A DNA stretch of 64,000 nucleotides from positions 3,472,001 to 3,536,000 of the forward strand of contig NZ_JAVDQF010000001.1 in assembly GCF_031454135.1 (NCBI RefSeq), given 5' to 3'. How positions within the stretch are numbered: the first letter of the stretch is position 1; every line of letters starts with the position of its first letter. Below the pieces are notes generated by a model. The model had not been told where the DNA came from, did no database searches, and saw nothing but the letters and a program-made list of their open reading frames with translations. Shown here piece after piece: positions 6,799-50,632 of the stretch. A program made the position numbers and the translations under genes. The DNA is from Arthrobacter russicus. Its GTDB lineage: Bacteria; Actinomycetota; Actinomycetes; Actinomycetales; Micrococcaceae.

Positions 6799-6807
6799 CG
6801 CCGACGC

Positions 6808-13030: not shown

Positions 13031-13114
13031 CCGGTCACCCGGCGGAGCGGTCGACGAAGCGCAACTCGGCGCGTGGCGCCGGATTCGGCAGGTTTCCACG
13101 TTGCCTGCAGCGTG

Positions 13115-13415: not shown

Positions 13416-13814
13416 GCAGTGGCCGGCCTGTACCGGAGGTTCCGCGCCGAGCGCGGTGGCGGCGATTTGGGCGATGCTGCCGCAGAAGTGCTCTCGGTGC
13501 TCTGCAAGTCCGGTCCGCAAACCCTGAAGGATCTGAGCGAGTTGCAACGGGTCACTCCGGCTTCGATGAGCCAGGTGGTCAACCGGCTGACCTCGGCCGG
13601 TTACGCCGAGCGGGGCGGCGATCCGCGCGACGGCCGGAAGGTGATCTTCACCGCCACCGCGCAGGGCGAAGAGCTCTTCCTGGCGGACCGGGCCCGGCGT
13701 CACGCCTGGTTCGACGCGAACCTGGTCGGGCTCAGTGCCGCGGACCGTGCGGCACTGGCGCGGGCTGCGGAAATCATGGAGCGGATCGCAGTATCGCCGA
13801 ATCCCGGACTCTGA
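13383..13814 (+). CDS. MarR-family regulator, probably 5'-truncated
   Basis: The recognisable MarR domain runs from AVRSAVAGLYRRFRAER through the winged helix (TPASMSQVVNRLTSAGYAERGGDPRDGRKVIF) to the dimerisation helix. The usual first 10-15 residues are missing. Upstream the frame stays open but translates the antisense of an HD-hydrolase fragment. The in-frame GTG at 13383 gives 143 residues but lacks a ribosome binding site, and the next in-frame GTG (13419) is no better. The gene may be expressed from a poor start or be dead. MarR and HD genes probably once stood head to head with a shared promoter that is now deleted. Confidence 0.6.
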   Translation: MRRKSCAAVRSAVAGLYRRFRAERGGGDLGDAAAEVLSVLCKSGPQTLKDLSELQRVTPASMSQVVNRLTSAGYAERGGDPRDGRKVIFTATAQGEELFLADRARRHAWFDANLVGLSAADRAALARAAEIMERIAVSPNPGL

Positions 13815-13844
13815 TCGGCCGACGGCGTTGGGCGAGAAAGCCGA

Positions 13845-13887
13845 AAGCGGTCGTGGCGTCTCAGGGGGGTGGACGCCACGACCGCTT
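13845..13887. terminator. Bidirectional terminator between MarR and chitinase genes
   Basis: Perfect 16-bp inverted repeat (13845-13860 and 13872-13887) with an 11-base loop, placed between two convergent genes. The plus strand continues with GTTTC and the minus strand with TTTCGG, so tails are weak, but stem stability should be high. Confidence 0.75.
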
Positions 13888-13941
13888 GTTTCGGGGGAGG
13901 AGCACGCAATTCCTCAGGAACCGGTCCTCACCGGCCCGGGG

Positions 13942-15597: not shown

Positions 15598-15758
15598 ATC
15601 CGACCTTCTGTTGATGATCCGTTGCGGCGGCCCGCACCGGTCTTCAAAGATTAGAAAGTCCAGTGCCTCCGCGCGTCCGTACTTTCCACATCATTAGGGC
15701 GGCGAAGGCCGTCCGGGTAAGTAGTTCCACGTACTCCGGCAACCACGTCCGCGCCGGT

Positions 15759-33928: not shown

Positions 33929-35119
33929 TCAGACCGGCAAGCGCTCCTTCGCGAGCACGTTCTCGATCGCGTCCACTGCGGCCCGGAGGCCGCCGGCAGC
34001 ACGCAGCGCCTCGGCGTGGGGCCGGGCGTTTTCCCGGTACTGCGGATCGCGGAGCACCTGTTGGGTGGCTTCGGCGATCTGCGCGGCGGTGGCCCGGGAG
34101 AACCGCACCGCGATGCCGATGCCGTATTCATCGCTCTTTTCCGCGAGCAGCGGCTGGTCGTCCCGGATGCCGGCCAGGACCATCGGGACTTGATGCCAAA
34201 TGCCCTCCAGAACGCTGTTGTAGCCGCCGTGGTTGATGAAGCCGACCACGTGCTGGAGCAGTTCCTGCTGCGGCACATGCGGTACCACCAGGATCTCCGG
34301 ATCGTCGAATCCGGCCAAGGCGTTCGAAGGGTCCGCGATGATGGCCCGCAGCCCGGCTTCGCGCAAACCCTGCGCGGCGGCTTGGATGAACCGGTCCCCG
34401 GCACCGACGTTCGTGGTGCCCAAGGCCACCAGGACGGTCGGCGATTCCTGGGCGAACCGGATGATCCGCCGATTCTCCGCCGCCGCTTCCGGGGAAACCG
34501 CAGCTGGGCGGAACACCGGCCCGACGAACTCCACCGGCCCGGGCAGCTCGGTGCGGGCGTCGAAGAGTCCGCCGATGCCGAAGGCGATGGTCAGGAAAGG
34601 GGAGTAGAGCGGGTCAGCGCCGGAATCCGGATCGCCGATGTCCTGGCGCAAGCCGCGGAACAGCTCATCGCGCCATTCCAGGACCTTCGGCAGTTTGCCC
34701 ACCGGGTTGATCAGTTCGATCATCGTGGTGGCCGAAGTCACCCACGGCACGCCCAGGCGTTCGGCCACCATCGAGCCGGCCAGAGCCTGCTGGTCGACCA
34801 GCATCAGATCGGGCCGGAAATCGCGGACCGCAGCCTCGACGTCGGCCGCCATGCCGCGGGCCAATGGCACGAAACCGTCCTCCCAGAGGAATTTCAGCGC
34901 GCCCGGACCCATCAGCTTCACCGGCCGCTCCGGCTGCACATCGGCTTCCCAGCCGGTGCGGTAGTTGTAGAACTTGGTCTCCGGCGCCAGGAACCGGGAA
35001 TGGAATTTCCACAAACCGGACCAGGCCACCTGGTGGCCGCGGCGTTCGAGTTCATCGGCGATGGCCAAGGGCGGGCTGCTATGGCCCACCAGCGGCGGGA
35101 CGACGATCAAAATGCGCAT
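33929..35119 (-). CDS. MGT-type glycosyltransferase (GT1), tailoring enzyme of the lipid cluster
   Basis: A 396-residue GT-B fold enzyme. The N-terminal acceptor domain starts MRILIVVPPLVGHSSPPLAIADEL. The C-terminal nucleotide-sugar domain carries the PSPG-like motif VPHVPQQELLQHVVGFINHGGYNSVLEGI, with the catalytic-region HGGYNSV, followed by DQPLLAEKSDEYGIG. This group transfers hexoses or rhamnose to macrolides, flavonoids or lipids such as mycolactone-like and rhamnolipid precursors. It ends the five-gene operon, 13 bases after the hydrolase, so the acceptor is probably the product of the upstream megasynthase. Confidence 0.9.
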   Translation of the reverse strand: MRILIVVPPLVGHSSPPLAIADELERRGHQVAWSGLWKFHSRFLAPETKFYNYRTGWEADVQPERPVKLMGPGALKFLWEDGFVPLARGMAADVEAAVRDFRPDLMLVDQQALAGSMVAERLGVPWVTSATTMIELINPVGKLPKVLEWRDELFRGLRQDIGDPDSGADPLYSPFLTIAFGIGGLFDARTELPGPVEFVGPVFRPAAVSPEAAAENRRIIRFAQESPTVLVALGTTNVGAGDRFIQAAAQGLREAGLRAIIADPSNALAGFDDPEILVVPHVPQQELLQHVVGFINHGGYNSVLEGIWHQVPMVLAGIRDDQPLLAEKSDEYGIGIAVRFSRATAAQIAEATQQVLRDPQYRENARPHAEALRAAGGLRAAVDAIENVLAKERLPV

Positions 35120-35132
35120 GCGAGGGCACCAA

Positions 35133-35975
35133 TCAGTGGGAAGGTTCGTGGTTGGGGACGGGGCTGAGGGCCTTGCCGGAGACCACCGGGTGTTCCAGCA
35201 CCCAGTCGATCAAAAGCTCTTCGAGCAGGCGGGGCACATCGGTGAGCAGCGAATGCCCGACGCCGGGCACGATCACGGTCTTCACGTTCTTGATCAGTTC
35301 CCGGACCTTGGGCTCCTGTTCGACCAGTTTGAATTCACTGCCGTAGACCGCCAGGACCGGCATCTCCAATCCGGCGATCGCATCGTCGGCGACCAACTGG
35401 GCTTGGGGCAGTTCTTCGAAGAAATTGGTGTCCTTGGCCATCCGTTTGCCGTTTTTGAGCATTTTGACCCCGGGCATGCCGAAGCTGGCGAGCATCCGGA
35501 CCATGGCATCGGGCCGGCGCATCTCGGCATAGCTCTCTTCGAAGGCCTGGACCATTTCATTGGCCCAGAACGCGGTGGGCGGCTCGGCCTCCAAAGAACC
35601 GAGACTGGCTACCCGCTCCGGGAACTTGAGCGCGAATCCATAGGCGATGGTGCCGCCGTAGGAGTTGCCGGCGATATGCACCGGAGTACCGTCGTGGATG
35701 GTGTCCAGCAATTCGGCGATGTCGTCCAGGATGTGCTCCATCTGGTAGCCGGATTTGATCCGTTCGCTTTTCCCGTGCCCGCGATGGTCGAACATGATCA
35801 CGTCGATGCCCGCTGCCGCGATCGCCGGCGCGATGGTCAGGTAATAGCTGGCCAGATTGTCGATCACGATGCCATGGACCAAGACGAGCGTTTCCCGCGG
35901 CTCGTCCGGCGCCAGGTTGCTGGCCCGGAGGATTTCGTAGTTGAGCTTGAGCCCGTTGATGGTCAGGATGGTCAT
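35133..35975 (-). CDS. Alpha/beta-hydrolase of the lipid megasynthase operon
   Basis: A 280-residue alpha/beta-hydrolase. The oxyanion strand is LVLVHGIVIDNLASYY, the nucleophile elbow is IAGNSYGGTIAYG (GxSxG as GNSYG), and the acid and His are in VLAVYGSEFKLVE and VIVPGVGHSLLTDVP. Position 37 bases after the ACP gene and 13 before the glycosyltransferase gene suggests it releases the chain from the ACP as a thioesterase, or transfers it to an acceptor. Sequence alone does not separate these roles from a degradative esterase. Confidence 0.88.
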   Translation of the reverse strand: MTILTINGLKLNYEILRASNLAPDEPRETLVLVHGIVIDNLASYYLTIAPAIAAAGIDVIMFDHRGHGKSERIKSGYQMEHILDDIAELLDTIHDGTPVHIAGNSYGGTIAYGFALKFPERVASLGSLEAEPPTAFWANEMVQAFEESYAEMRRPDAMVRMLASFGMPGVKMLKNGKRMAKDTNFFEELPQAQLVADDAIAGLEMPVLAVYGSEFKLVEQEPKVRELIKNVKTVIVPGVGHSLLTDVPRLLEELLIDWVLEHPVVSGKALSPVPNHEPSH

Positions 35976-36012
35976 GGCGATTTCCTCAGGGTTCGGGGCG
36001 ATCGGGTGCGGT

Positions 36013-36336
36013 TCAGGCTTGGCTTGCGCCGGTTCCGTTCAGGCTGCTGGTCACATAATCGACCAGCTGGCCGACGTTCATGCTGATGATCTCCTCGAGG
36101 TCCAAGGATCCGAGGAATTCGGCGAAATTGATTCGCTCACCGTAGATTTCGCGCAGTTTCCCGCCGAGCGTGACCAGGTCGATGCTCTCCAGCTCCAAAT
36201 CCTCCTGGAACTGGGTCTCCCTGGTCACTTCGATGTCCTCGATGTCGTATTCGTCGAGGATCTCTTCAATGACCCGGGTGATTTCGGCGAGTACGGACTC
36301 GGCGGTCGGAGCAGTGGTCGGAAGTTCGATGGTCAT
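36013..36336 (-). CDS. Discrete acyl carrier protein of the lipid cluster
   Basis: A 107-residue acidic carrier protein. The phosphopantetheine-attachment Ser lies in DLELESIDLVTLGG (DSL-like motif with E before S, about residue 51). A longer than usual C-terminal helix (NVGQLVDYVTSSL) follows. Its ATG overlaps the stop of the AT-DH-PPT gene (ATGA). It is the third ACP of the cluster, in addition to the two fused in the KS protein, and may accept starter units or the finished chain. The PPT domain encoded by the upstream gene is the likely activating enzyme. Confidence 0.92.
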   Translation of the reverse strand: MTIELPTTAPTAESVLAEITRVIEEILDEYDIEDIEVTRETQFQEDLELESIDLVTLGGKLREIYGERINFAEFLGSLDLEEIISMNVGQLVDYVTSSLNGTGASQA

Positions 36337-39300
36337 TGCGGTGTCCTTTCAGAGTCGTCCAGACCGGTTGTCCAGGCGACGATGTAGCTTCGTTCGGTGA
36401 GTATTTCGAGGTTGTGGATGGTGCTGACCGCCACCCGGTAGCGCCGCCCGGCCGCAGTGTCGACGTCGAGCCGGTAGTCGCAGTCCGGGGTTCCCGGATG
36501 CACTGCGACCACTTCGAGTTCCCGCGGCCGGCCGGCCAGGCCGGTGCCCAAGGCTTTGCCCACCGCTTCCTTCGCGGAGAAGAACCTGGTCAACCAGGCC
36601 AGCGCCTCGGCCGGCTCGGCGTCCTTGCGCAGCGCATCCAGCCGAGCCTGCTCGGCGTCGCCGAAAAGCACTGCTTCGATCGATTCCGGCCGGCTTTCGA
36701 TGGCTTCGACGTCGATGCCGACGCCGGCCGATCCGGGCACCCGGGGCCGGGCGATGGCGACGCCGACGTCGTTGCTGTGCGCGATCGAGAACTCGAGTTC
36801 GGGCAGTTGCCGCCCGTGTACGCCGGACACCGTCGGTTGCCCGCTGGGCAGGTGCCCGATGGCCAACTCGGCCGGGAAGACGCCGGACGGGTCCGTGCTC
36901 CACAAGACGCGCCGGATCGCGTCTTTGGCCGCGATCTTCCCGAGCAGCCGCTGCCGTCGGCCGCGCGGCGGGCTGGCCAGGTGTTCCTGCCGTTCGGCCC
37001 GGCCGAAATACTTGCGCAGGGTCAGGTCCCGGCTGGCCAAATCGGGCCAGAAATCCGGCAGCAAGACCCAACCGCCCGGCTGCGGCAGGGAGAAGGTGTG
37101 TTTCTCGATCGCCTCGTCCATGTCGTGGATATTGGGTTCGTTGTCGAAACGGTGTTCCTGCCACCCGGTGATTTGGCACCATACCCGGCCGTCGTGCACC
37201 AATTGGCCCGTCACGGCGAACGAATCTTCGGTGAATTCGGTGATCTTCAGGTGGCATTCCAAGACTTCGCCGGGCAGCGGCTCCGGCCCGCTGAACGCCA
37301 TGGTCTGCACTCCGACCGGGAACACCCGGGAACGACGGCTGAACTGGAGCTGGACCCAGTACCCGGCCAGCTGGCCGATGCTGTCCATCAGCGAACCCTT
37401 GGCGTCCTTGGCGACCAGGCTGGCCCGGATGTGCCGTTCGCCGACACCGTGCACCGCCGTAATGATCTGGTATTGCGGCCCGTGGAACATCCAGCCTTCG
37501 CTGTAGAGCTGCGAGGCATGGCTGATTCCGGCGGGCCGTTCGGCCGACGTGTCGACCGGCCAGACCTCGCTGGCCGGAGCCGGGTACTCTGCGGCCAGTT
37601 CGATGGTGCCGTGGGCGAACCCGCCGAAGGAGACGGCCAGCCGGTGGTCATCCAGCCAGTCCATCGCGATTTCGACGTCGGTCGGCTCGCTGAGGTCCAC
37701 CCAGCGGTCCAGCCGGACCTCGTGCAGCGCGACCGCGGACCGGCCGGTGGCGGCTTCGGCGGCGTCCATCATGAACCGGATGATCGCGGTTCCGGGCACC
37801 ACCGGGAACCGGTCGCTGACATCCGGCCAATCCTCGCGTTGCCGGAAGAAGCTGTGGTCGATCAGGTAAGGCATCCGGTCGAGCGAAACCGTCAATGCGC
37901 GCGGCGGAAGCTTTGGCCTCGAGTCGGCCACGGGTTCCGCCGGCCCAGCGGTTCCCGGCGCTTCCGGCGGAAGCTGCGGTGCCGGAAGCGCCGCGGGCGG
38001 GAGGCTTGCGGCAACTGACGGTGGAACCTGGATTTGCCGGAGCGCGCCCGGCAACGCGGCGGCCCGGGCCAGCGAGCCATCGAGCAGGGCGGCGACCAGG
38101 GCCTCCGATTCGGTGAGGAACGCGTCCAGCTCCGCGGCGAGCAACGGCGAAAGATTGCTCCCGCTGCGGAAGCCCGCGGCGCGTTCGGAAGCGTCGACGG
38201 GGGAAGCCGCTCCGCCGGCCGCAGCCGCAGCTGGGGCTTTCGGCGGCCCGGCGGATTCGACCGGTGTGTCAGATTCGGCCGGTGCGCCGGATTCGACCGG
38301 TGCAGCAGCGGGCGAACTGACGCCCAAAAAGCCCAAATCCACCTCCCGGCCGCAGGCCCAAAGCGCCGTGAGCACACTGCGCAGCTGGTTCAACCCGGTG
38401 CGGTGCGAGGCATTGGCGCTGACCACCACATGCTCGGTGTGGTGCAAGGTGTCCGAGATCAAACTGCCCAACTGGCCCGGACCGAGCTGAATGAAAACCG
38501 TGCTGCCGTCCGCGTGCATATTCGCGATGAGTTCGCGGAACCGGACGTGCTCGACCAAGTGCCGGATGAAGATTTCCTGGATCTGCGCCACGTCTGCCGG
38601 GAACGGCCGCATTGTGGTGGCGGACCACACGGGCCGCTGCGCCGGGGAGATCGCCCAGGATTCGGTCAGTGCCTGGATCTGGCCGACGTGTTCGCGGAAC
38701 ATCGGCGTGTGGAAACCGGAAGCGAACGGCAGCACCCGCGAGATGAAGCCTTGTGCCCGGAATTCCGCGACGATCTCCTCGACGGTCTGCAAGGGGCCGC
38801 AGATCATCGATTGCTGCGGCGCATTGTCGTGCGAGAGCACCACATCCCCGCGGCCCTGCAGAGCTGCGGACACGGTCTCGGCAGAGGTGCCGATGACTGC
38901 GAAGGCCAAGCCCGGGAACTGGATTTCGGTCATTCCGGATTCGTCCAGGAACCGGTCGACGGCGCCGCCGTCGTAAATGCCGCCGATGATCATCGCGGAC
39001 CATTCGCCCACGCTGTGCCCGGCAAGTTCATCGGGAATCACCCCGATCCGCTGCAAAGCCGCGGCCAGCACCCGGGAGACCTGCAGCACCGCGCTACTCT
39101 GCAACTGGGTGCCCTGCAGCGCATCGCCCTTTCCGGCCGCGCCACGCAGCGCCGGCAAACCGAAGTGCTCGATGACGTCGTCGATCCGCGGGCTGAAGTC
39201 GGCCTCCAAACCGGGGCAGACGAAAGCCAGTTTGCCGCCGCCCCCACCCGGTCCGGAATCCGCCCGAGCGCGCAGCAACGGGCCGGGCCGGAACCAGACA

Positions 39301-39569
39301 TCATTCCGACCGTGCCAGGGATTGCCCCGGCTGACTGCTTTGCGGGCCACGTTGAGCTGCTTCTTGCCGGGCGCCACGATGCCCAACCGCACTGGCCCGT
39401 CTCCGGGCGGCGTGCCGATCCGGGCGAGCAGTTCGGCGTCTTCGGCCATCAGGAGCTGTTGCATCTCCGGCAGGCTGCCAGCGCTCAACAGCAACACCTG
39501 TGCGGCATCGGGCTCGACCGCGGACCGGACGGCGGCGGTGCGCGGCAGGTTGCCCAGTTCGGTGCTCAA
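36333..39569 (-). CDS. AT-DH-phosphopantetheinyl transferase fusion protein
   Basis: A 1078-residue protein with three catalytic parts. An acyltransferase (about residues 110-440, LAGHSVGEW with the active Ser near 186) resembles PfaB of PUFA synthases. After an Ala/Pro linker (about 440-560) comes a hot-dog dehydratase domain (about 560-830). It carries YLIDHSFFRQ, the following VVPGT and the second-helix Asp in LMDSIGQLAGYW. The C-terminus is a Sfp-type phosphopantetheinyl transferase (about 860-1065; GIDVEAIE and WLTRFFSAKEAVGKALG). The start is a TTG one base after the stop of the KS gene, so translation is coupled. It provides dehydration and ACP activation for the pathway. Having the transferase fused in cis is unusual. 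Confidence 0.9.
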   Translation of the reverse strand: MSTELGNLPRTAAVRSAVEPDAAQVLLLSAGSLPEMQQLLMAEDAELLARIGTPPGDGPVRLGIVAPGKKQLNVARKAVSRGNPWHGRNDVWFRPGPLLRARADSGPGGGGGKLAFVCPGLEADFSPRIDDVIEHFGLPALRGAAGKGDALQGTQLQSSAVLQVSRVLAAALQRIGVIPDELAGHSVGEWSAMIIGGIYDGGAVDRFLDESGMTEIQFPGLAFAVIGTSAETVSAALQGRGDVVLSHDNAPQQSMICGPLQTVEEIVAEFRAQGFISRVLPFASGFHTPMFREHVGQIQALTESWAISPAQRPVWSATTMRPFPADVAQIQEIFIRHLVEHVRFRELIANMHADGSTVFIQLGPGQLGSLISDTLHHTEHVVVSANASHRTGLNQLRSVLTALWACGREVDLGFLGVSSPAAAPVESGAPAESDTPVESAGPPKAPAAAAAGGAASPVDASERAAGFRSGSNLSPLLAAELDAFLTESEALVAALLDGSLARAAALPGALRQIQVPPSVAASLPPAALPAPQLPPEAPGTAGPAEPVADSRPKLPPRALTVSLDRMPYLIDHSFFRQREDWPDVSDRFPVVPGTAIIRFMMDAAEAATGRSAVALHEVRLDRWVDLSEPTDVEIAMDWLDDHRLAVSFGGFAHGTIELAAEYPAPASEVWPVDTSAERPAGISHASQLYSEGWMFHGPQYQIITAVHGVGERHIRASLVAKDAKGSLMDSIGQLAGYWVQLQFSRRSRVFPVGVQTMAFSGPEPLPGEVLECHLKITEFTEDSFAVTGQLVHDGRVWCQITGWQEHRFDNEPNIHDMDEAIEKHTFSLPQPGGWVLLPDFWPDLASRDLTLRKYFGRAERQEHLASPPRGRRQRLLGKIAAKDAIRRVLWSTDPSGVFPAELAIGHLPSGQPTVSGVHGRQLPELEFSIAHSNDVGVAIARPRVPGSAGVGIDVEAIESRPESIEAVLFGDAEQARLDALRKDAEPAEALAWLTRFFSAKEAVGKALGTGLAGRPRELEVVAVHPGTPDCDYRLDVDTAAGRRYRVAVSTIHNLEILTERSYIVAWTTGLDDSERTPQ

Positions 39570-39570
39570 C

Positions 39571-42500
39571 TCACCACTCCGAAGCGGTGTAGACGACGGC
39601 GTTCACATGGCGCTCGCCCCAAGCGAGCTCCTTGAGCAGCGCATGCGTCCCGGCCTCGGGGTCGATCAGTTTGATGCCGCGCCGGACGAAGTCGCGGCCG
39701 AGTTCGTCGCTGACCATTCCGGGATTGCTGCCGGAGGGCGCCCAGGGCCCCCAGTGCACCGTGACGGCACGCTGCCCGGTGCGCAACGACCAGGCGGTGC
39801 CCATGGCTTCCAAGGCGTCGTTCGCGGCGGCGTAATCGCTTTGCCCCCGGTTGCCCATCGCGGCCGCGATGCTGCCGAAGAAGACCACGAATCCGGGGCT
39901 GACCGGCAGCGAATCCAGCACCGCCAGAATCGTGGCGGCCCCGTCCACTTTGGTGCTGTACACCCGGCGGAACGATTCCGGGTCCTTGTCCGCGACCAAA
40001 CCGTCTTCGATCACTCCGGCCGCATACACGATGCCGTCGATCCGACCGTTGCGGTCATGGATCCGGCCCAGCGCCTCCCGGACCGCATCCGCGTCCCGGA
40101 CGTCCACCGATTGGTATTCCACGCTGCTGCCGTTGGCGCGCAGCCCTTCGATGGTGCCGGCGACCTCGCGCCGGGCCAAAATCGCTGCGGCTTCGCGTTC
40201 GATCGAGGCCGCGCTGGCTCCGGGGCGGCCGGCCAAGACGCGGCGCAGGGCCGGAAGATCAGCGGCTGCCGCGGTGTCCGCGGGCTCGGCCAGGCCGTCG
40301 AAAGCGGTACGGCCGATCAGCTCGATGCGGCAGCGGCTGGTGCTGGACAGGGTGTTCGCGAACTTCGCGGTGATCCCGCGGGCGCCGCCGACCAGGACGA
40401 CGACAGAGTCCCGGTCCAGCTGCAGGGCTTCGGCTTCGGCAGCGCCTTCGCCGGCCGGACCGGCTCCGGTGGCACCGAGCAGGCCCAGATCGGTGTTGAC
40501 CAGTTCCAGGCCGGTGCGTTCGCCGTTGAACAGATCCACGATCGGTTCATTCGAGACATCGGTGAGTTCGGCCAGCAGCGACGCTGCGACCGCATCGGCC
40601 GGCTTGGTGGGCTCGATGTCCACGAGACGGACCAAGGACTGCGGGTATTCGCGGGCCAGGCTGCGGAACAGTCCGCGCAACCCGATCGTGCGTTCGGCCC
40701 GGCCGGATCCGTCCGAGGCGATCGGCCGGGCGGCCAGCAGGTACCGCGGCCCGAGCGCCATGGCCGCTTTGAAGAGCGGGAACAGGTCCGGCACCGCGGC
40801 GGTCTGCGGATTGTCCAACGGATCGAGGTAGAGCACGCCGTCGATGCCCGGTTGCAAGGCCTCGGTTGCTTGCTCCGGCCCGGCCAGCACCGCAGTGGCG
40901 CCGAGTGCGGCGGCGGCCGACACAGCCTGGCCGGCGATCTCGCCGGAACCGATGATCAGCAGTTGCCGGCCGGCCAGCGCGCCCGCGGTGGCTTGCGGCA
41001 AGTCCAAACGGGTTTTCTTGAAGAGCAGCCGTTCCGGAGTGTGGCCCGGTACCGCCGAACCAGCCTGGGCGGGCTCTGCCGGTTGCTGATCCGCCGCGGC
41101 CGGTGTGGCCGGTTCGGCCGGGGTTCCACTGAGCGATACCAGGAGCCAGTCGGCGATCGCGCCGGTGGTGCGGGCTTTGGAAAGCTCATCGAGCTGGTTG
41201 TCGCTGAGTTTGCTGCTGCCCCCGGCCTCCGCGAAGCGGGCGGCCAGCTCTCCGGCGATTTCGGTGCGTTTGATCGAATCGACGCTCAGATCGGCTTCCA
41301 GGTCGAGGTCCGGTTCGATCATTTCGGCCGGGTATCCAGTCCGTTCGCTGATGATCTCCACGACCGCGTCCAAAATCGCCGAGATGTTCAACGCGGCGGC
41401 TTGCGGGCTGACGGCTGAGCCGGTTGCCGGACCGGCGGGGGCGCCGATCGGGGATCCGGCCGGGGCCGCTGCCTCGACGGCGCTGCCGATCCGCGCGCTG
41501 AGCCAGTCGGCGATCGCGCCGGTGGTGCGGGCCTTGGAAAGTTCTTCGAGCTGCCGGTCGTCCAAGGCGATCGCGGAACCTTCGACCTTGCTGAGCCTGG
41601 CGGCCAGCTCACCGGCGATTTCGGTGCGCTTGATCGAATCGACGCTCAGATCGGCTTCCAGGTCGAGGTCCGGTTCGATCATTTCGGCCGGATACCCGGT
41701 GCGTTCGCTGATGATCTCCACGACCGCGGCCAGGATCGCGGCAGGGCTCAAGCCGACCGCCGGGGCCGGGTTCGCCTGCGGTTGCAGCAGCGTCGCAGTG
41801 GCCCCGACCGGAGCGCCTCCGGCCAGGCCCGCTCCGGCTGCGACGGGGCTGGCCGGCGCCGGCGCGGGCGGTCCCGGCACAGCCGGAGCCGCGGCGGCGA
41901 ACTCGGGCGTCGCGGCAGGGGTAGGAAGGAAGGACTGGGATCCGGCCGATGGCGCGGACGGCGTGCCGGAACCGGATCCGAAGTAGCCCAGGAGCACGTC
42001 CCGTTGCGCGGCGACCATTTCACGGCTGGTCTTGAGGAACTCGGCGACCAGGGCATCCCGCTCGGCGAGTTGTTGCGGCTGTTGCGCTGCGGATTGCTGC
42101 ACTGGGGTGACCTCCTGGAGACGTCGTGCTGGGGCGAGCGCGCCGGGGACTACTTTCCCGTCGCGAGTTTTGATGGTGGCGCCGTTGACGGTCCAACCCG
42201 GAGTCAGCGGAATGATCGAGCTGTTGATCGTCTGGGCATCGCGGCCGCGGTAGAGCCAATCGACCGATACCTTGGTCCCGGCCGTGGCCAAGCTCGCGAA
42301 GGCGACTAGGAGCTCGCGGATGCTGCCGCGCGAACTCCTGGCCAGCGGAACCACGGTGTGCGGCCGTTCGCCCAGGATTGCCGCGACCAATTTGCTGAGC
42401 ACCTGGCCGGGGCCGACCTCGACGAAGGTCCGGGCACCGGCGGCATACATCGATTCGATCTGCTCGACGAAGCGCACCGGTGCGGTCACTTGGGCCGCGA

Positions 42501-45500
42501 GCTCGGCACGGATCGAAGCCGCACCCTGCGGATACGGCTGGGCGGTGCGGTTGCTCCAGACCGGGAATGCGGCTTCCGCCAGCGGCACTCCAGCCAGGGC
42601 AGCGTCGAAGCTGCGCGATGCCGCGGCGATCACCGGGCTGTGGAAAGCACAGGCCACCGGGAAGGTCTTCACCCCTAGGCCGGCCTCGCGCGCGGCGTCA
42701 ACGGCCGCATCGATGGCTGCACTGGCACCGGAGATCACCGTTTGGGCCGGTGAATTGCGATTCGCCAGGGTGACGGTCGCAGCGAGCCCGGCCTGCTCCA
42801 GAGCGGCTTCGACGGCTTCGGCGGAGGCCGAGACGGCAGCCATCTTGCCGGGGTCTGCACCGATTGCGCCGACCACCGAGGCCGCACGGTCCGCGCTCAT
42901 CGAAATCAGCGTCTTGGCATCGAAGACCCCTGCTGCGCTGAGCGCCGCGAGCTCGCCGTAGCTGTGCCCGGCGGCCAGATCCGGCCGGATGCCGGCTTTG
43001 CCGAGCAGCTCGCCCAAAGCGATGGCGGCAAGGCCCAAAACCGGTTGCGCGACCCTGGTATCCGTGATCCGGAGCGATTGCGCCTCGGATTCCTCCGCGG
43101 TGAAGGCCGCCGGCGGAAGCATCGCACCCAGCCAGGGGCGGCCCAGGGCCAAGGTTTCGTGCAGCTCCGGGAAGGCGACGAAAAGCTCCCGCAGCATCCC
43201 CGGACGTTGGCTGCCCTGGCCGGGGTAGAGGAACGCCAAGGACCCGGGCTCCGCAGGTTTCGCGGCCGTGAACAAGCCTGCGTCCGGGTCGTGTTCGCCT
43301 TTCGCAGCGCGGGCCAGCAGTACTGTGAGCTCGTCGATGTCGCGGGCCACCAAGGCGATGGACGCCGGTTTGCCGGCGTTCGCCGAGCGGACGGCGTTGC
43401 TCGCGGCCAGGTCCCGCAGCCGCCAGGGCCGGCCATTGTCGTCGCCCAACGAGACGACGGCACCGAGCTCCTTCACCGATCGCATCGCGTCGGTGGCGTC
43501 GCCGTGGAAGAGGAACAGTTCGGCCGGCCACTCGTCGATGCTGTGCCGCGGCGGGGCGGATTTCTTGTGCCCACCCAAAACCACGTGGAAGTTGGTCCCG
43601 CCGAAGCCGAAGCCGCTGACCCCGGCAAAGCGTTCGTCCAACGGGGCGGTCCACGGAGTGGCTTCCTTGTTGAACACGAACGGACTGCTGTCCAGGTCCC
43701 AAGCCGCGCTCGGCGTGGTGACGTGCAAGGTGGGCGGTTTGACCCCGTTGTAGATCGCCATCGAGACCTTGATCATGCTGGCCATCCCGGCCGCGCACTT
43801 GGTGTGCCCGATTTGCGATTTCACCGAACCGATCGCGGCGTTTCCGGCCGGCACGCCGGACTCGGTGAAAACCTTGGTGAGCATGGTCAGTTCGGTGCGG
43901 TCGCCGACCACGGTCCCGGTGCCGTGCGCCTCGACCAGGCCGACCTGGGCCGGATTCACCCGGGCGTTTCGGTAGGCGCGTTCCAACGCCGAACGCTGGC
44001 CTTCCGGACGGGGTGCGGTCAAGCCCAGTGATTTCCCGTCGCTGGAACTGCCGATGCCGCGGATCACCGAGTAGATCCGATCGCCGTCGCGTTCGGCGTC
44101 CGCGAGCCGTTTCAGCACCAAACAGCCCACGCCTTCACCGAGTGCGATGCCGTCGGAGTTCCGGTCGAAAGCCCGGGACCGGCCGGTCGGGCTCAACGCC
44201 GTGACCGAGGCGAACAAAAGGTAGTCGTTGATCGTGTTGTGCAGATCGGCGCCGCCGCAGAGCACCATGTCCGCGGTGCCGAGAGTCAGTTCCTTGCAGG
44301 CCACGTCGAGGGCGGCAAGCGAGGAAGCGCAGGCCGCATCCATGGTGTAGTTGGCGCCACCGAGGTCGAGCCGGCTGGCGATCCGGCCGGAAATCACGTT
44401 GGAGAGCATGCCGGGGAAGGAATCTTCGGTGAGCCGGGGCAGCTGTTCGGAGAGCTCTGCCGGAATGTTCGCCACATAATTGGGCAAGATGGTCTGCACC
44501 AAGCTGGCGTTCGCCAGGTCGCTGCCCATCTCCGCGCCGAAGAACACCGCGATCCGGGAACGGTCCGCGGACGAGTTGAAGTTGGCGTCGTCCAGGGCTC
44601 GGCGGGTGACTTCCAGGGCGAGCAACTGGACCGGCTCGATCGCGCCCAACGACGCCGGCGGAATGCCGTAACGCAGCGGATCGAAGGGGATCTCCGGCAG
44701 GAACCCGCCCCACTTCGACGGGCTCTTGATCCCGTTGGAGGTGGCGCCGTCGTAGTAGACCGCCGGATCCCAGCGATCCGGGTGCACCTCCGTGACTGCA
44801 TCTTTGCCGTTGACGATGGTGGACCAGAAGGCGGCGAGGTCCGGGCTTCCGGCGAACATGCCGGACATGCCGACGATCGCGATGTCCAGTGGCGCGGCGG
44901 TGGCCGGTTCGGCGTCGACGGGCTTCGCCTCGGGGGAGTGCCGGGCCAGGAATTCTGCGGCGTCGCTGCTCAGCGTGCGGTGCAAATCGGCCACCGTGGT
45001 GACCGCGGAACGCAAGGCGACGACTTCGCCGGCCATGAACATGCCGTCGGAGAGCTGCCGTTCGGCGGTGACTTCGTGCAGTTCGGAGCCGATGCGTTCA
45101 ATGCCCTTGCTGGCCAGACGCAACCGGCCGAGATTGAGCGATTCGAGCTCTTGCCAAGCGTCCCGGTCCGGGATTCCTTCTGCGGACATCCGGGCTTTGA
45201 TCGCCAGGAACTCTTCGGTGAACGGACTGCTCACGCACCGGGTCGCGTGCCCCGGGGCGGTTTCGAGCATCGCGGTCGTGGTGCCTGCGACGACTTGCTG
45301 CTGGAATACCTCGCTGATCGCACCGGAGGCAACTGCTTCCTCGGTGAAAAGATACGCGGTGCCGATCAGCAGGCCGATCAGGGCTCCTTTGGCGGCCAGC
45401 GGAGCGGCCATCGCGGCGACCATCGCCGCGGAACGTTCATCGCTGATGCCGCCGGCGAAATAGACCGTGACCGGGTCGCCGTCGAGCTTGTCGATGCGGT

Positions 45501-46899
45501 CTTCGAGGACCGCGATCTGGGCTTCCCAAAGCGCGAAGCTGTTGCGCGGTCCGATATGGCCGCCGCATTCGGAACCTTCGAAGATGAACCGGCGGGCGCC
45601 GGCGGTGAGGAACTGCCCGAGCAGGGCCGGCGAAGGAACGTGCAGGAAGGTTTTGATCCCCGCAGCTTCCAGCGCCGCGGCCTGGGCCGGGCGGCCGCCG
45701 GCGATGATCGCGTGGCTGGGCTTGACCTCGTGCACGATGGCCAATTGGGCGTCCTTGGTCGCATCGTCGGCGAAGCCCAGGATCCCCACGCCCCAGGGCT
45801 TGGCACCGATCCGGTCGCGGGTGCCTTCGAGCATTTCCCGGGACTGTGCGGCATTGGACAGGGCCAGGGCGATGAACGGCAACGCGCCCTCGGCCGCGAC
45901 GGATTCGGCGAAAGCGGGCTGATCGCTCACCCGGGTCATCGGTCCTTGGGCCAGTCCCAACCGAGTGCCCATGTTCTGCGCCAAGGGCGAATCCGGAAGC
46001 AGGATGTCGGCGTGCTGCGGCTCGCGGATCGCCTTGCGCAAGCCTTTCACGCTGCCGGAGACATTGCGCCAGAGCGAGGCGAAACGGGCGGCCAGGAATC
46101 CGTCCTGGCCGATCGGCACCAGCTGCCGGTCCAGATCGGTGCTGCCGAGGTCGGCGGGCAGCTGCGGGTTGCCGCGCTCCGGTCCGGTGCCGGCTTCCGG
46201 TTTGCGGGCCGGGCCGCGACGGCGCAGCACCCGGTAGCCGTCGACCAGGAGGGTTTCCGAGCCGTCCATGGTGGCCAAAGCCGAGGCCAGTTCGGCCGAA
46301 GTGCCGGCTTCTTCCAGCAAGGCGAGCTGGGTGTCCAGGAGCACGCCTGCAGCCCCACCTGTGATGGCCGCCCGGGCGGTATTCGGTCCGATGCCGCCGG
46401 CCGCCCAGACGGGCAGCTCGACGTCGGCTGCAGCGACCAACTGCTGCAGCAGCACGAAAGAACTCAACGAACCGACCAGCCCGCCGCCGTCGCTGCCCCG
46501 GGCGATCAGGCCGTGCGCGCCCAGGCGCTGCGCGTTCAGCGCGTCCTCGAGGCTGCGCACTTCCACCAAGACCAGGGTGCTGCCCGGGACCTCTCCGGGT
46601 TTCCAGCCGGGCAGCAGTTCTGGATCCTGCGCCAGCAACAGGTGGCTCGGCGCGCTCAAGTGCTCCGCGAAGACCTCCTGCGGACTCACCCGGCAGCCGG
46701 TGTCCACCCTGATCCCGAACGGTTCCGAGGTCCAGCGGCGCACTGATTCGAGCGCCTGCAGGGCCGGCTCGGCGCGCGACCCGAGGTCCAGGATTCCGAG
46801 GGCGCCACAATTCGAAGCTGCGGCCACGAGCCGGGCGTCCGGCGTGGCGAACGGGCTCACCGCGAGGATCGAGATGCGGTTTGCAGTGTCAGCGCGCAT
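39571..46899 (-). CDS. Pfa/PUFA-synthase-like megasynthase: NMO-NMO-KS-AT-ACP-ACP-KR
   Basis: A 2442-residue iterative lipid synthase. Two nitronate-monooxygenase/PfaD-like FMN barrels come first. The first (about 1-220) has GSDGGGLVG where the FMN/catalytic His is expected. The second (about 310-620) has the intact SECGGHIG. KS (about 670-1110) has DAACASS (Cys about 857), VEAHGTGT and GHTKCAAG. AT (about 1220-1530) has AAGHSYGEL. A Pro/Ala linker leads to two ACPs (about 1717-1804 and 1839-1924), each with ADLSVDSIKR. The KR (about 1960-2400) has VGGARGIT and SIAAAMGNRGQSDYAAAND. With the separate DH this set can fully reduce each cycle. No chain-length-factor KS is present. ATG 46899 has AGGA six bases upstream. 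The product is unknown. Confidence 0.92.
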   Translation of the reverse strand: MRADTANRISILAVSPFATPDARLVAAASNCGALGILDLGSRAEPALQALESVRRWTSEPFGIRVDTGCRVSPQEVFAEHLSAPSHLLLAQDPELLPGWKPGEVPGSTLVLVEVRSLEDALNAQRLGAHGLIARGSDGGGLVGSLSSFVLLQQLVAAADVELPVWAAGGIGPNTARAAITGGAAGVLLDTQLALLEEAGTSAELASALATMDGSETLLVDGYRVLRRRGPARKPEAGTGPERGNPQLPADLGSTDLDRQLVPIGQDGFLAARFASLWRNVSGSVKGLRKAIREPQHADILLPDSPLAQNMGTRLGLAQGPMTRVSDQPAFAESVAAEGALPFIALALSNAAQSREMLEGTRDRIGAKPWGVGILGFADDATKDAQLAIVHEVKPSHAIIAGGRPAQAAALEAAGIKTFLHVPSPALLGQFLTAGARRFIFEGSECGGHIGPRNSFALWEAQIAVLEDRIDKLDGDPVTVYFAGGISDERSAAMVAAMAAPLAAKGALIGLLIGTAYLFTEEAVASGAISEVFQQQVVAGTTTAMLETAPGHATRCVSSPFTEEFLAIKARMSAEGIPDRDAWQELESLNLGRLRLASKGIERIGSELHEVTAERQLSDGMFMAGEVVALRSAVTTVADLHRTLSSDAAEFLARHSPEAKPVDAEPATAAPLDIAIVGMSGMFAGSPDLAAFWSTIVNGKDAVTEVHPDRWDPAVYYDGATSNGIKSPSKWGGFLPEIPFDPLRYGIPPASLGAIEPVQLLALEVTRRALDDANFNSSADRSRIAVFFGAEMGSDLANASLVQTILPNYVANIPAELSEQLPRLTEDSFPGMLSNVISGRIASRLDLGGANYTMDAACASSLAALDVACKELTLGTADMVLCGGADLHNTINDYLLFASVTALSPTGRSRAFDRNSDGIALGEGVGCLVLKRLADAERDGDRIYSVIRGIGSSSDGKSLGLTAPRPEGQRSALERAYRNARVNPAQVGLVEAHGTGTVVGDRTELTMLTKVFTESGVPAGNAAIGSVKSQIGHTKCAAGMASMIKVSMAIYNGVKPPTLHVTTPSAAWDLDSSPFVFNKEATPWTAPLDERFAGVSGFGFGGTNFHVVLGGHKKSAPPRHSIDEWPAELFLFHGDATDAMRSVKELGAVVSLGDDNGRPWRLRDLAASNAVRSANAGKPASIALVARDIDELTVLLARAAKGEHDPDAGLFTAAKPAEPGSLAFLYPGQGSQRPGMLRELFVAFPELHETLALGRPWLGAMLPPAAFTAEESEAQSLRITDTRVAQPVLGLAAIALGELLGKAGIRPDLAAGHSYGELAALSAAGVFDAKTLISMSADRAASVVGAIGADPGKMAAVSASAEAVEAALEQAGLAATVTLANRNSPAQTVISGASAAIDAAVDAAREAGLGVKTFPVACAFHSPVIAAASRSFDAALAGVPLAEAAFPVWSNRTAQPYPQGAASIRAELAAQVTAPVRFVEQIESMYAAGARTFVEVGPGQVLSKLVAAILGERPHTVVPLARSSRGSIRELLVAFASLATAGTKVSVDWLYRGRDAQTINSSIIPLTPGWTVNGATIKTRDGKVVPGALAPARRLQEVTPVQQSAAQQPQQLAERDALVAEFLKTSREMVAAQRDVLLGYFGSGSGTPSAPSAGSQSFLPTPAATPEFAAAAPAVPGPPAPAPASPVAAGAGLAGGAPVGATATLLQPQANPAPAVGLSPAAILAAVVEIISERTGYPAEMIEPDLDLEADLSVDSIKRTEIAGELAARLSKVEGSAIALDDRQLEELSKARTTGAIADWLSARIGSAVEAAAPAGSPIGAPAGPATGSAVSPQAAALNISAILDAVVEIISERTGYPAEMIEPDLDLEADLSVDSIKRTEIAGELAARFAEAGGSSKLSDNQLDELSKARTTGAIADWLLVSLSGTPAEPATPAAADQQPAEPAQAGSAVPGHTPERLLFKKTRLDLPQATAGALAGRQLLIIGSGEIAGQAVSAAAALGATAVLAGPEQATEALQPGIDGVLYLDPLDNPQTAAVPDLFPLFKAAMALGPRYLLAARPIASDGSGRAERTIGLRGLFRSLAREYPQSLVRLVDIEPTKPADAVAASLLAELTDVSNEPIVDLFNGERTGLELVNTDLGLLGATGAGPAGEGAAEAEALQLDRDSVVVLVGGARGITAKFANTLSSTSRCRIELIGRTAFDGLAEPADTAAAADLPALRRVLAGRPGASAASIEREAAAILARREVAGTIEGLRANGSSVEYQSVDVRDADAVREALGRIHDRNGRIDGIVYAAGVIEDGLVADKDPESFRRVYSTKVDGAATILAVLDSLPVSPGFVVFFGSIAAAMGNRGQSDYAAANDALEAMGTAWSLRTGQRAVTVHWGPWAPSGSNPGMVSDELGRDFVRRGIKLIDPEAGTHALLKELAWGERHVNAVVYTASEW

Positions 46900-47500
46900 G
46901 GAAATTCCTGTCTCTAAAGCGTTTAAATACCGCCATGGTGTAAAAAATTTAACTGGTTGAGGCTCCAGATGGAAGATTCATTCCTAAGGCCACCGCAATC
47001 TTTATTGTAGAGTCGTCGGGGTTGGCGTCAAGCAACAAATCTTCAGGTGGCAATTTGTTTACCCAATACGTACCCAAAGTTATTTTTCTTGAAATATATT
47101 GAAACGTCCGGGTGCGGGCAATTCACCTCGGGTATTGTGCTCAGGAGCGATCCGGCGATTTATTGCGACTTAGCGTCGCAATAGTTGTCCGGTCGCGGCT
47201 TGAAGGGGCAAGTTGCCTTTAAATTCAAGGATCGGGAGCCGCGCTGTGAATTTTTTGCCGGCGTGCGCGACGGTCTGTCGCCGTGATTTTGTGACCTTGA
47301 TTACATTGCCGACTTTCCCCAGAATGCTCCGGTTGAAAAGTAGGCAAAGTGGCGTATAAGCGGGTTGGGTCGCCTTGGTGCAAATTTGGGATCGACTACC
47401 GCAAAGATAGGCGCAGCGGGCGCCTCGGCGGGCGCTTCCGCGCTATCACTGAGATGGCCATTCGGTTATCCGAGTGGTTAGAAATTTAGCAATTCGCTGG
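46900..47500. promoter_or_regulatory. AT-rich control region upstream of the megasynthase operon
   Basis: Six hundred bases without a gene, clearly richer in A and T than the surroundings, especially 46915-47110 and 47200-47345. The megasynthase promoter should lie near the left end: on the minus strand TATTTA (about 46923-46928) is a candidate -10. A symmetrical site ATTGCGAC-TTAGC-GTCGCAAT occupies 47162-47182 and could be an operator. The region also carries the 3' side of the TetR gene's terminator zone. Base composition resembles DNA bound by xenogeneic silencers such as Lsr2. Confidence 0.6.
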
Positions 47501-48133
47501 CTATTTTGAGGCGGGTTGCCGGTCCGGGGTGGTGAGCGCGCTGAGAATGCATTGCAGGGTGAGCGGGCTCAGGTCTGCGGGCTCCGGGGCTCCAGGGTCC
47601 GGGAAGTGGCTGTGCGTCATGGCGCCTTCGTGTGCGGCCATGACCACTCGGATCAAGACCGAGATCGGCACCGTCGGTTTGCGGCCGGCCCGCTCGATCG
47701 CGCTCAGCAGGATCGGTTCCAGTCTTTCCCGGAGCCGGCGGCGGTGTTCGGAGAGCGCCGCAGCGGCCAGCGGGTTGCGCAGGGCTTGGGCGGTGAATTC
47801 GGCATTGAGCAGCTGCCAATGGCTGCCGACCTGAAGCAGGTTGAGCACTTTGCCAACGATCTCGCCGACGTCCGGCGTCGCCGCAGTGCTGGACAGGACC
47901 TCTTCGAGGCGATCCAGATAGAGCTCGATGTTCCACTCGTAGAGGGCGAACAGCAGCTCGTCCACGGACTCGAAGTTCGAATAGAAGGCGCCCCGGGTGA
48001 ATCCTGCGCGTTCGCAGATCTCTTCGATGCTCGCCTTGTGGATCCCGTGTTCCACGAGAAGCTCGCCGGCCGCTGCGATCAGGCGTTTGCGGGTTTCGGA
48101 CCTGCGCCGCGGAACTTTCTCGGAACCAATCAT
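47501..48133 (-). CDS. TetR-family repressor between the lipid cluster and the BVMO operon
   Basis: A 210-residue TetR regulator. The helix-turn-helix is RKRLIAAAGELLVEHGIHKASIEEICERAGFTRGAFYSNFESVDEL (about residues 15-60), and the ligand domain follows. The gene reads away from the hydrolase-BVMO-SDR operon, with an operator-like 13-bp inverted repeat between them (48148-48180). It should repress that operon and itself. Its 3' end faces the control region of the megasynthase, so it may also influence that cluster, but no matching operator was found there. Confidence 0.9.
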   Translation of the reverse strand: MIGSEKVPRRRSETRKRLIAAAGELLVEHGIHKASIEEICERAGFTRGAFYSNFESVDELLFALYEWNIELYLDRLEEVLSSTAATPDVGEIVGKVLNLLQVGSHWQLLNAEFTAQALRNPLAAAALSEHRRRLRERLEPILLSAIERAGRKPTVPISVLIRVVMAAHEGAMTHSHFPDPGAPEPADLSPLTLQCILSALTTPDRQPASK

Positions 48134-48147
48134 GGAAAAAGTCTATC

Positions 48148-48180
48148 CAATACAGAATGTTTTGAATACATTGTGTATTG
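48148..48180. promoter_or_regulatory. TetR operator upstream of the hydrolase-BVMO-SDR operon
   Basis: Arms CAATACAGAATGT (48148-48160) and ACATTGTGTATTG (48168-48180) are reverse complements at 12 of 13 positions, around a 7-base spacer. The site lies in the divergent promoter region, 14 bases from the TetR start and about 20 from the hydrolase start. Confidence 0.78.
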
Positions 48181-48201
48181 AGACTCAACGAAGAGAGGTT
48201 C

Positions 48202-49077
48202 ATGATGCCTGTTTTGCCCCCCGGCCTCAGCCTGAAGCGAATTTCGGTCAAGGGCCGCAGCACCCGGTATGCAGATCTGGGCGACGGTGCGCCGCTGGTG
48301 CTGTTGCACGGCATCGTGCGGAGCCTGGAGGATTGGGGCCAGGTGATCGAACCCTTGTCCAAGCAATACCGGGTGCTGGCTCCGGATCTGGCCGGATTCG
48401 GTTTTTCTGAAGGCTTGCCCAGCTACAACCTGGAAGCCTTGGCCGAGCACGTTTGGGATTTCCTCGATGCGCTCGGCGTCTCCGGGCCAGTACGCCTGGT
48501 GGGCAATTCGCTGGGCGGTGCAGTCACCATGAAAGCCGCGGTGCAGGATCCGGACCGGGTGGAGCGGGTGGTCCTGGTGAACAGCGCTGGATTCGGCAAG
48601 TCGGTGACCGTGGCGATTCGGGCATTGGCCATTCCGGTGATCGGCGGAAAAGTGATCAAGCCGCTGCTGCTCCGGCCGAATATGCGGATGGCCCGGGCGG
48701 TGGAGAGTTCGTTGTACCGGGACCAGCGCATCGTGACCCGGGAACGGGTCAACCTCGGCTACGACCTTTTGGGCCAGGAGCAGGCGATGCGCGCCTCGGT
48801 CGAATCCGGCGTCGCCCTGGGCAGCTTCTTCGGCGCGGCCGAAGGTTGGCGCCGGGAGCTTCTGGACGGCTATCGTCCCTTGTCCCATCCCACGCTGGTG
48901 CTGTGGGGCAGCCACGACAAGATCCTGCCGGCCAGTCATCTGCCCAATGCGCGGCGCGAACTGCCGGCCGCCCGATTCCACCTCTTCCAGCGGGTGGGCC
49001 ATATGCCGATGACCGAGGTTCCGGAACAATTCCTGGCGGTCGTCGGGCCGTTTTTGGCGGAAAACGCCGATGCCTGA
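48202..49077 (+). CDS. Alpha/beta-hydrolase (esterase), first gene of the BVMO operon
   Basis: A 291-residue alpha/beta-hydrolase. LVLLHGIVRSLEDWGQV holds the oxyanion HG, the nucleophile elbow is LVGNSLGGAVTMKAA (GNSLGG), and the catalytic Asp and His are in LVLWGSHDKILP and VGHMPMTEVP. Two adjacent ATGs (48202, 48205) follow GAGAGG; the second has the better spacing. Its 3' end overlaps the BVMO start by eight bases. In Baeyer-Villiger pathways such an esterase hydrolyses the ester or lactone made by the monooxygenase; that role is inferred from the neighbour. Confidence 0.9.
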   Translation: MMPVLPPGLSLKRISVKGRSTRYADLGDGAPLVLLHGIVRSLEDWGQVIEPLSKQYRVLAPDLAGFGFSEGLPSYNLEALAEHVWDFLDALGVSGPVRLVGNSLGGAVTMKAAVQDPDRVERVVLVNSAGFGKSVTVAIRALAIPVIGGKVIKPLLLRPNMRMARAVESSLYRDQRIVTRERVNLGYDLLGQEQAMRASVESGVALGSFFGAAEGWRRELLDGYRPLSHPTLVLWGSHDKILPASHLPNARRELPAARFHLFQRVGHMPMTEVPEQFLAVVGPFLAENADA

Positions 49078-50632
49078 GGCCAGCATCGAAATCGCCGTGA
49101 TCGGAGCCGGGTTCTCCGGGCTGGGAGTCGCCTGCGAACTCGTCCGGCACGGTCGCCGGGATTTCATCGTGCTCGAACGCGGCAGCACGGTCGGCGGCAC
49201 CTGGCGGGACAACACCTACCCGGGTTGCGCCTGCGATATCCCCAGCGACCTCTACTCCTTCTCCTTCCAGCCGAATCCGCACTGGTCCAGCAATTACGCC
49301 GCGCAGCCCGAGATCCTGGCCTACCTGCAGCAGGTTGCCGCGGACTACGGCTTGCTGGAGCCCGACGGCGCGCCGGCCGGCTCGGACCTCTCGGCGGCAG
49401 CCCCGGGCAGCATCAGTTTCGGCACCGAACTGCAAGGTGCCGATTGGTTGCCGGATCGGCAGCGTTGGCGGATTTCGACGAACCGGGGCAGTTTGCTCGC
49501 CAGATACCTGATTTCCGGCCACGGCCCCTTGATCACGCCGAAATGGCCGGATTTGGCCGGGCTGGACGAGTTCCGAGGGGTCCGGTTCCATTCGGCGCAA
49601 TGGGACCACACCGTCGATCTCGCCGGCAAACGGGTCGCGGTCATCGGCACCGGTGCCAGCGCCATCCAGTTCATTCCGCAGGTGCAAGGCGTGGCCGGCG
49701 AAGTCCACGTCTTCCAGCGGACACCACCATGGATCGTCCCGCGGGGTTGGCGGGAGACCTCGGCGAAACGCCGTGCCGTGTTCGCCAAATACCCCGTGCT
49801 GCAGAAACTCGACCGGCAGCGGAAATTCCGGATTCTGGAGACCCGGCATCTGGGCCTGAGTACCGCACGGTTCAACCGGGTCATGCAGGACTTCGCGCTG
49901 AGCTACCTCAATCGCAAGGTCAAGGATCCGGGGCTCCGGGCCAAGCTCACCCCGGACTATCGGATCGGCTGCAAACGGATCCTGATTTCGGACAACTATT
50001 TCAATGCGCTGCAAAAACCCAATGTGGAGCTGGTCACCGACGCCGTGGTCAGGGTCACCGAACGCGGCATCGTCACTGCGGACGGCGTGGAACGCGAAGC
50101 CGACGTCTTGATCTGCGGTACCGGGTTCAATGCCACGCAGCCGAAGATCGCCGGTTTGATCCGGGACGGCGACGGCGTCTCGTTGGCCCAGAGGTGGGGC
50201 GCGGATTTCGAGGCGCACCGCGGGACCACGGTGACCGGTTACCCGAACCTCTTCCTGATCGTCGGACCGAACACCGCCCTCGGCCACAATTCGATCATCT
50301 ACATGATCGAAGCCCAGGTGCGTTATGTCCTGGCTGCGCTCAACGCGGCAGAACGGCGCGGCGCGGTGGAGTTGGCGCCCACGGAGGCCGCCCAGCGGGC
50401 ATACAACCGCTGGCTGCAGAAACGCCTGGCCCGGCTGGTCTGGACCCGCGGCGGCTGCTCGAGCTATTACCTCAGCAGCACCGGCAAGAACACCACGCTC
50501 TGGCCGGAGCGGGCGGCTGCGTTCCGGCGCAAGCTCGGCCGCTTCGATGCGGCCAGCTATCGGTTTTTCAAACCCCGTCATCCTGTCCTGTCCGCCATCC
50601 CGACCAAGAAAGCGGTATCTCCCCATGTCTGA
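49070..50632 (+). CDS. Flavin-binding monooxygenase, Baeyer-Villiger type
   Basis: A 520-residue FAD/NADPH enzyme with GAGFSGLG (FAD, about residue 11) and GTGASAIQ (NADPH, about 193). The type-I BVMO fingerprint FxGxxxHxxxWD (FRGVRFHSAQWD, about residues 168-179) lies between them. The WRDNTYPGCACDIPSDLYSFSF segment is typical of BVMOs and of the mycobacterial MymA-like group. It would convert ketones to esters or lactones. It lies between an esterase and an SDR gene with short overlaps on both sides, the classical enzyme trio for alcohol-ketone-ester conversion. The substrate is unknown and could be a lipid. Confidence 0.92.
   Translation: MPEASIEIAVIGAGFSGLGVACELVRHGRRDFIVLERGSTVGGTWRDNTYPGCACDIPSDLYSFSFQPNPHWSSNYAAQPEILAYLQQVAADYGLLEPDGAPAGSDLSAAAPGSISFGTELQGADWLPDRQRWRISTNRGSLLARYLISGHGPLITPKWPDLAGLDEFRGVRFHSAQWDHTVDLAGKRVAVIGTGASAIQFIPQVQGVAGEVHVFQRTPPWIVPRGWRETSAKRRAVFAKYPVLQKLDRQRKFRILETRHLGLSTARFNRVMQDFALSYLNRKVKDPGLRAKLTPDYRIGCKRILISDNYFNALQKPNVELVTDAVVRVTERGIVTADGVEREADVLICGTGFNATQPKIAGLIRDGDGVSLAQRWGADFEAHRGTTVTGYPNLFLIVGPNTALGHNSIIYMIEAQVRYVLAALNAAERRGAVELAPTEAAQRAYNRWLQKRLARLVWTRGGCSSYYLSSTGKNTTLWPERAAAFRRKLGRFDAASYRFFKPRHPVLSAIPTKKAVSPHV

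Follow-up and report, generated by a model that had tools for sequence, protein, structure and literature searches.

The 64,000-nucleotide stretch of Arthrobacter russicus DNA analysed here (the window; contig NZ_JAVDQF010000001.1, positions 3,472,001 to 3,536,000, from a source genome of 3,818,559 bases on one contig) carries a lipid-synthase operon of five minus-strand genes (46899-39571, 39569-36333, 36336-36013, 35975-35133 and 35119-33929), spaced by 1 base, a 4-base overlap, 37 bases and 13 bases. Searches with Pfam (the four larger proteins) and NCBIfam (all five) agreed on every domain, and the tally of one ketosynthase (KS), two acyltransferases (AT), three acyl carrier proteins (ACP) and one dehydratase (DH) bears out the domain list of a preliminary description of this DNA, whose gene spacing (1-base, overlapping and 13-37-base gaps) also agrees with the measured values. 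That description had noted neither a second KS nor a tandem DH pair in the operon; likewise, no second KS appeared among the domain matches in the window, and one polyketide synthase (PKS)-type DH was seen.

The first gene encodes PKS1 (39571-46899; 2442 aa), a pfaD-A fusion in which an enoyl reductase (ER) of FabK/NMO type is followed by KS1, AT1, two ACPs and a ketoreductase (KR). The ER region (residues 1-650; 44950-46899) falls into two FabK-like segments, which resemble different FabK chains (residues 21-202 and 304-597). Pfam placed KS1, with Cys-His-His, at 43564-44886, AT1, with the motif GHSYGE, at 42250-43239, the tandem ACPs, each with VDSIK, at 41155-41754 (limits approximate) and KR at 39739-40404. 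PKS2 (36333-39569; 1078 aa), of pfaB-C-PPT type with its KS (KS2) lost, starts with TTG seven bases downstream of GGAG and comprises a KS-AT linker, AT2 (38325-39227; GHSVGEW, in which every residue except V is invariant across 65 aligned rows), a PKS-type DH (37137-37808; PKS_DH_N and PS-DH, with His572 and Asp729 invariant in a five-row alignment that includes the window) and a phosphopantetheinyl transferase (PPT) domain (36477-36725), likewise located with Pfam. Behind it follow a free-standing ACP (36013-36336; 107 aa, NCBIfam), an alpha/beta hydrolase with GNSYGG (35133-35975; 280 aa, Pfam and NCBIfam), proposed as a release or lactonising enzyme, and an MGT/YjiC-type UDP-sugar glycosyltransferase (33929-35119; 396 aa, Pfam and NCBIfam), whose nearest solved relatives are YjiC- and oleandomycin-type enzymes. 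In Pfam the cut-off was passed by PS-DH, UDPGT and the remaining core domains, while PKS_DH_N (22.2 of 27), the best ACP model (35.9 of 65) and MGT TIGR01426 (131.8 of 260) fell below their curated cut-offs.

The missing KS2 was traced by comparison with a second genome of the species (G113), three congeners (G002, G003 and G005) and named genomes, a scan of which with an AT-DH-PPT alignment gave at least 535 stretches encoding some PKS2 relative; counts on named relatives refer to the best-scoring 80 of these and not to the full set. A complete KS, some 470-490 residues long, opens the second protein in G002 and G005. Between KR and AT2 lie 1599-2076 nt in 80 rows (79 distinct loci; L061 of the named set and L021 of G038 are the same contig) and 216-351 nt in four loci, namely the window, G003, Actinokineospora fastidiosa (L080) and an Acidobacteriaceae metagenome-assembled genome (L063). 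The preliminary description had gauged the lone KS against marine PfaC, a comparison that misses the nearer one: among the operon's own relatives the long distance is found in 77 of the 79 measurable named loci, as well as in G002 and G005, and 77 named loci yielded a KS2 row. At the scar (39507-39569, minus strand), where about 20 residues lead from the start codon to the linker, G002 carries about 1.5 kb more than the window; the gap runs from just past the PKS2 start region up to the KS-AT linker, which is retained. On this comparison the absence in the window is a clean, lineage-specific deletion of a KS2 predicted to be catalytically complete, and not a feature of the family.

Three other possibilities were considered and rejected. 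An assembly slip behind the absence is contradicted by G113, where the PKS2 frame is KS2-less as in the window. Relocation is contradicted by a search of the window genome (G000) and G113, which returned no KS2 at E 1e-20, the next-best matches in G000 being its own KS1 (44%) and two FabF-like KSs (36%). A role for KS2 as chain-length factor (CLF) is contradicted by the catalytic Cys and the two His residues, present in all 80 KS2 rows (79 distinct; the set covers 80 of 86 loci, without L063, L080, L090, L018, L020 and the window). The converse of the window is seen in the Actinomadura loci L068, L070 and L074, where KS1 is without the catalytic Cys and KS2 has Cys-His-His; these three are also without an ACP or hydrolase match, and KS1 of L074 was only partly covered.

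A KS phylogeny, which the preliminary description had put forward as a check, places KS1 beside a Sulfidibacter KS accepted by the PfaA model (97/93, on a long branch flagged by the tree program), with KS1 and KS2 in separate clades. The KS1 tree holds 80 of the 86 loci (L052, L056, L061, L090, L020 and L021 being without a usable KS1), and a subset tree holds 24 of the 80 KS1, 20 of the 80 KS2 and nine reference KSs, FabF among them, whereas an earlier KS1/KS2 tree was built without FabF references; the KS1 trees were built without the Streptomyces avermitilis, Frankia and Actinosynnema mirum sequences. Of the 80 KS1 rows, 77 keep the Cys and 78 the first His; the rows that depart from this are Actinomadura loci. 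The window KS1 groups with its congeners at 100/100 in the subset tree and is sister to that of G002 (100/94 in the subset tree, 95 in the tree without FabF, only 87 in the 80-row KS1 tree), with 88% identity to this KS2-bearing sister lineage; G005 branches next, then G003. Given this branching, window and G003 (locus L018, a KS2-less operon at 5597-17124 with frame breaks in PKS1 and the hydrolase) would, most simply, have lost KS2 independently, and the deletion junction in G003 is unlike that of the window. Over the whole KS1 tree the four KS2-less rows require a minimum of four switches between presence and absence of KS2, of which supported branches force three, a count that by itself cannot separate losses from regains.

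Type M secondary-lipid synthases were described by Shulse & Allen (2011; PMC3098273) from Renibacterium salmoninarum (Micrococcaceae), three Frankia, A. mirum and S. avermitilis, and are listed there among the types with uncharacterised products. The operon shares with them the fused pfaD-A protein, the AT-DH-PPT protein and the PPT motifs, and congener G002 has an orthologous operon. According to the same paper, motif P1a, x(G/D)xP, occurs in the PPTases of all types and P1b', hShxH, in Types M-T; the window has SGQP and FSIAH in these places, G002 and G005 agree, and two G038 rows lay outside the P1b' search pattern. In G002, G005 and the 77 named relatives the second protein opens with KS2, whereas in the window AT-DH-PPT is present and KS2 is absent, and the operon is therefore termed a KS2-less variant. 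Overall, the arrangement resembles an already-known, Type M-like kind, of which the KS2-less form appears to be a new variant. A 2026 paper (PMC13291983) reports fused pfaDA and pfaBC-PPT genes in one Aquimarina and one Flavobacterium and finds them similar to 'an uncharacterized secondary lipid synthase' of R. salmoninarum. The preliminary description knew of no characterised product for this arrangement in Micrococcales; our searches of open-licence PMC papers found no compound linked to genes of the Type M-like kind, although the arrangement itself had already been recorded in that order, in R. salmoninarum.

A search for the gene order in other genomes, also suggested by the preliminary description, found ER-KS1-AT1-KR-AT2-DH-PPT-ACP-hydrolase-MGT in 62 of the 80 best named loci, the remaining 18 having another order or no match for one or more parts. 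The 80 belong mostly to Streptomycetaceae, Pseudonocardiaceae and other Actinomycetota, and also to Bacteroidota, Acidobacteriota, Planctomycetota and Pseudomonadota. Identical parts in identical order in several phyla exclude chance assembly, and the retention of this order argues that the hydrolase and glycosyltransferase belong to the pathway. Nearer to the window the operon is sparse: PKS2 homologues were found in five of 39 genomes (the window's own, congeners G002, G003 and G005, and one genome of the order) and in five of 149 sampled family genomes, all in the window's genus and including the window genome and G113, and the idea of a family trait was rejected. In 37 of the 80 named loci a methyltransferase (S-adenosylmethionine-dependent) follows MGT within 1.2 kb, with no hint of its substrate, and in seven an ABC exporter lies beside the operon. 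In all 11 Bacteroidota loci (L077, L078, L081, L085, L086, L089, L091, L093, L096, L097 and L099) the synthase is followed by a PapA-like acyltransferase and two MGT matches. In G002 (genome of 3,155,250 bases; locus L019, 13381-16292) two hydrolases flank MGT, and the window hydrolase resembles the outer of these (68%) more than its positional counterpart (51%).

Purifying selection acts on the shortened PKS2, which differs between the two genomes of the species by 15 nonsynonymous and 24 synonymous changes (pN/pS 0.22, P = 3e-6 against neutrality, by a simple tally that scores any codon with more than one change once, as nonsynonymous); apart from two in-frame indels between AT2 and DH it has none. 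PKS1 differs by 13 nonsynonymous and 62 synonymous changes (pN/pS 0.08), the hydrolase by 1 and 4 and MGT by 3 and 8; the ACP, with one of each, has too few to judge. None of the five frames contains a stop in either genome.

From the domains, motifs and conserved order we infer the following pathway. The PPT would charge the ACPs, AT1 and AT2 would load the extender, and KS1 alone would elongate iteratively, with KR, DH and ER reducing the chain fully in most cycles and to the alcohol only in some. The free ACP may then receive the acyl chain, MGT may attach a sugar to a chain hydroxyl, and the hydrolase may free the glycosylated hydroxy-fatty acid or its lactone. The likely product is a hydroxylated acyl chain to which MGT adds a sugar and which the hydrolase sets free. 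With moderate confidence we read the locus as a Type M-like secondary-lipid operon that lost KS2 by a clean internal deletion, in which KS1 alone would build the chain of a glycosylated hydroxy-fatty acid or lactone. The preliminary description had likewise proposed a Pfa-like iterative synthase with a glycosylated, probably non-PUFA (polyunsaturated fatty acid) product; the analysis supports the Pfa-like iterative synthase and a non-PUFA product, and glycosylation is likely.

Several observations weigh against this interpretation. The pN/pS of PKS2 exceeds that of PKS1; the window DH is 55-58% identical to those of G002 and G005, which are 66% identical to each other; and within the species dN/dS is raised for DH (0.31) and PPT (0.55), on few changes. 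The MGT and alpha/beta hydrolase families are broad, and YjiC- and oleandomycin-type enzymes accept varied acceptors. Beside the window operon there is no match to the methyltransferase, exporter or PapA-like gene. Some of these points would also suit a decaying operon, in which KS2 was lost first and what is left of the gene set has stopped making the lipid: the DH divergence and raised dN/dS favour it, as do the broken PKS1 and hydrolase frames of KS2-less G003 (a 60-contig draft, in which errors are possible), whereas the open frames, the selection on PKS2 with in-frame indels only, the kept catalytic residues and a promoter-like site common to window and G002 make decay unlikely. We consider it equally unlikely that FabF or a stand-alone KS fills the role of KS2 in trans, giving the product of the KS2-bearing relatives; the source genome does have two further KSs, but a FabF-sized KS occurs in all 10 genomes compared, KS2-bearing G002 and G005 included, and the stand-alone KS clusters with FabF, is 36% identical to KS2 and has neighbours (transporter, carbamoyltransferase, P450, methyltransferase) that suggest no link. 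This stand-alone FabF-like KS (L003/L123, 8294-9514) has a likely counterpart in G002 that carries a TAA stop. Most improbable is a saturated or unsaturated long-chain membrane fatty acid with MGT and hydrolase in resistance or housekeeping, for although PfaA (TIGR02813) is the best NCBIfam model of PKS1 and the Renibacterium cluster has been suggested as its strain's only complete fatty-acid pathway (Shulse & Allen, PMC3098273), the score of 924.3 bits lies under the cut-off of 1010.1, there is a single PKS-type DH against two in PfaC (PMC3098273), and ACP, hydrolase and MGT accompany the synthase in the 62 loci.

The operon differs from the PfaA-D PUFA synthases, with which it shares the KS1 grouping, tandem ACPs and FabK-type ER: its ER is fused to the KS protein and two-part, it has no CLF and one PKS-type DH, and it falls short of the PfaA cut-off. 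With the Hgl synthases it shares a Pfa-like iterative synthase and a glycosyltransferase, and Hgl enzymes make long glycosylated chains. Hgl chains are released as alcohols by a thioester-reductase domain; a Pfam search of PKS1, PKS2, hydrolase and MGT at E 0.001 returned no thioester-reductase match, and the Hgl route was rejected, release being more likely via the alpha/beta hydrolase. Hgl products are glycosylated C26-C32 chains with several hydroxyls, and shorter C24 1,3-diol analogues were ascribed to related islands, as speculation by the authors (PMC11804610).

Release may perhaps yield a macrolactone like arthrobacilin, fattiviracin or cycloviracin, glycosylation and lactone closure being steps that the operon could perform; this link, by biosynthetic logic alone, is suggestive only. 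Arthrobacilins have simple 3-hydroxy chains. Glucolipsin, fattiviracin (C22-28) and cycloviracin are actinobacterial glycosylated hydroxy-fatty acids closed to dilactones, the sugars of cycloviracin being methylated at C2 (PMC4365757), and arthrobacilins, grouped with them as lactone glucolipids, are produced by Arctic Arthrobacter strains (PMC7564310). Searches of open-licence PMC papers found no biosynthetic genes for any of the four. A bolder and rather doubtful extension would make Type M synthases the source of the actinobacterial macrolactone glycolipids (arthrobacilins, glucolipsins, fattiviracins, cycloviracins): chain building would be shared between KS1 and KS2, MGT would glycosylate the 3-OH, the hydrolase would join and close the units, and repeated KS2 loss, seen also in the window, would switch production from long chains with internal hydroxyls to shorter ones of the simple 3-hydroxy kind found in arthrobacilins. 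If the glycolipid reading is true, these would be genes for antiviral and growth-inhibiting lactone glycolipids, whose biosynthesis we did not find described. The gene set is common among the best named relatives, and its product was not found in print; the natural KS2-less form and its KS2-bearing sister lineage offer a ready comparison for the role of each KS and for chain-length control.

Upstream of PKS1, after about 600 bases without an obvious gene, lies a gene for a TetR regulator (47501-48133, minus strand), weakly ScbR-like in NCBIfam (under cut-off), with a counterpart upstream of PKS1 in congener G002 (63% over the 131 residues compared). The promoter-like TTGACG-16-TACAAT (47004-47031, minus strand) is common to the window and G002 while the surrounding intergenic bases have diverged, and was not seen in congener G005. 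Divergent from the TetR gene, 48178-50632 (plus strand) encodes an alpha/beta hydrolase and a flavin monooxygenase, the best NCBIfam match of the latter being pentalenolactone D synthase, far under cut-off.

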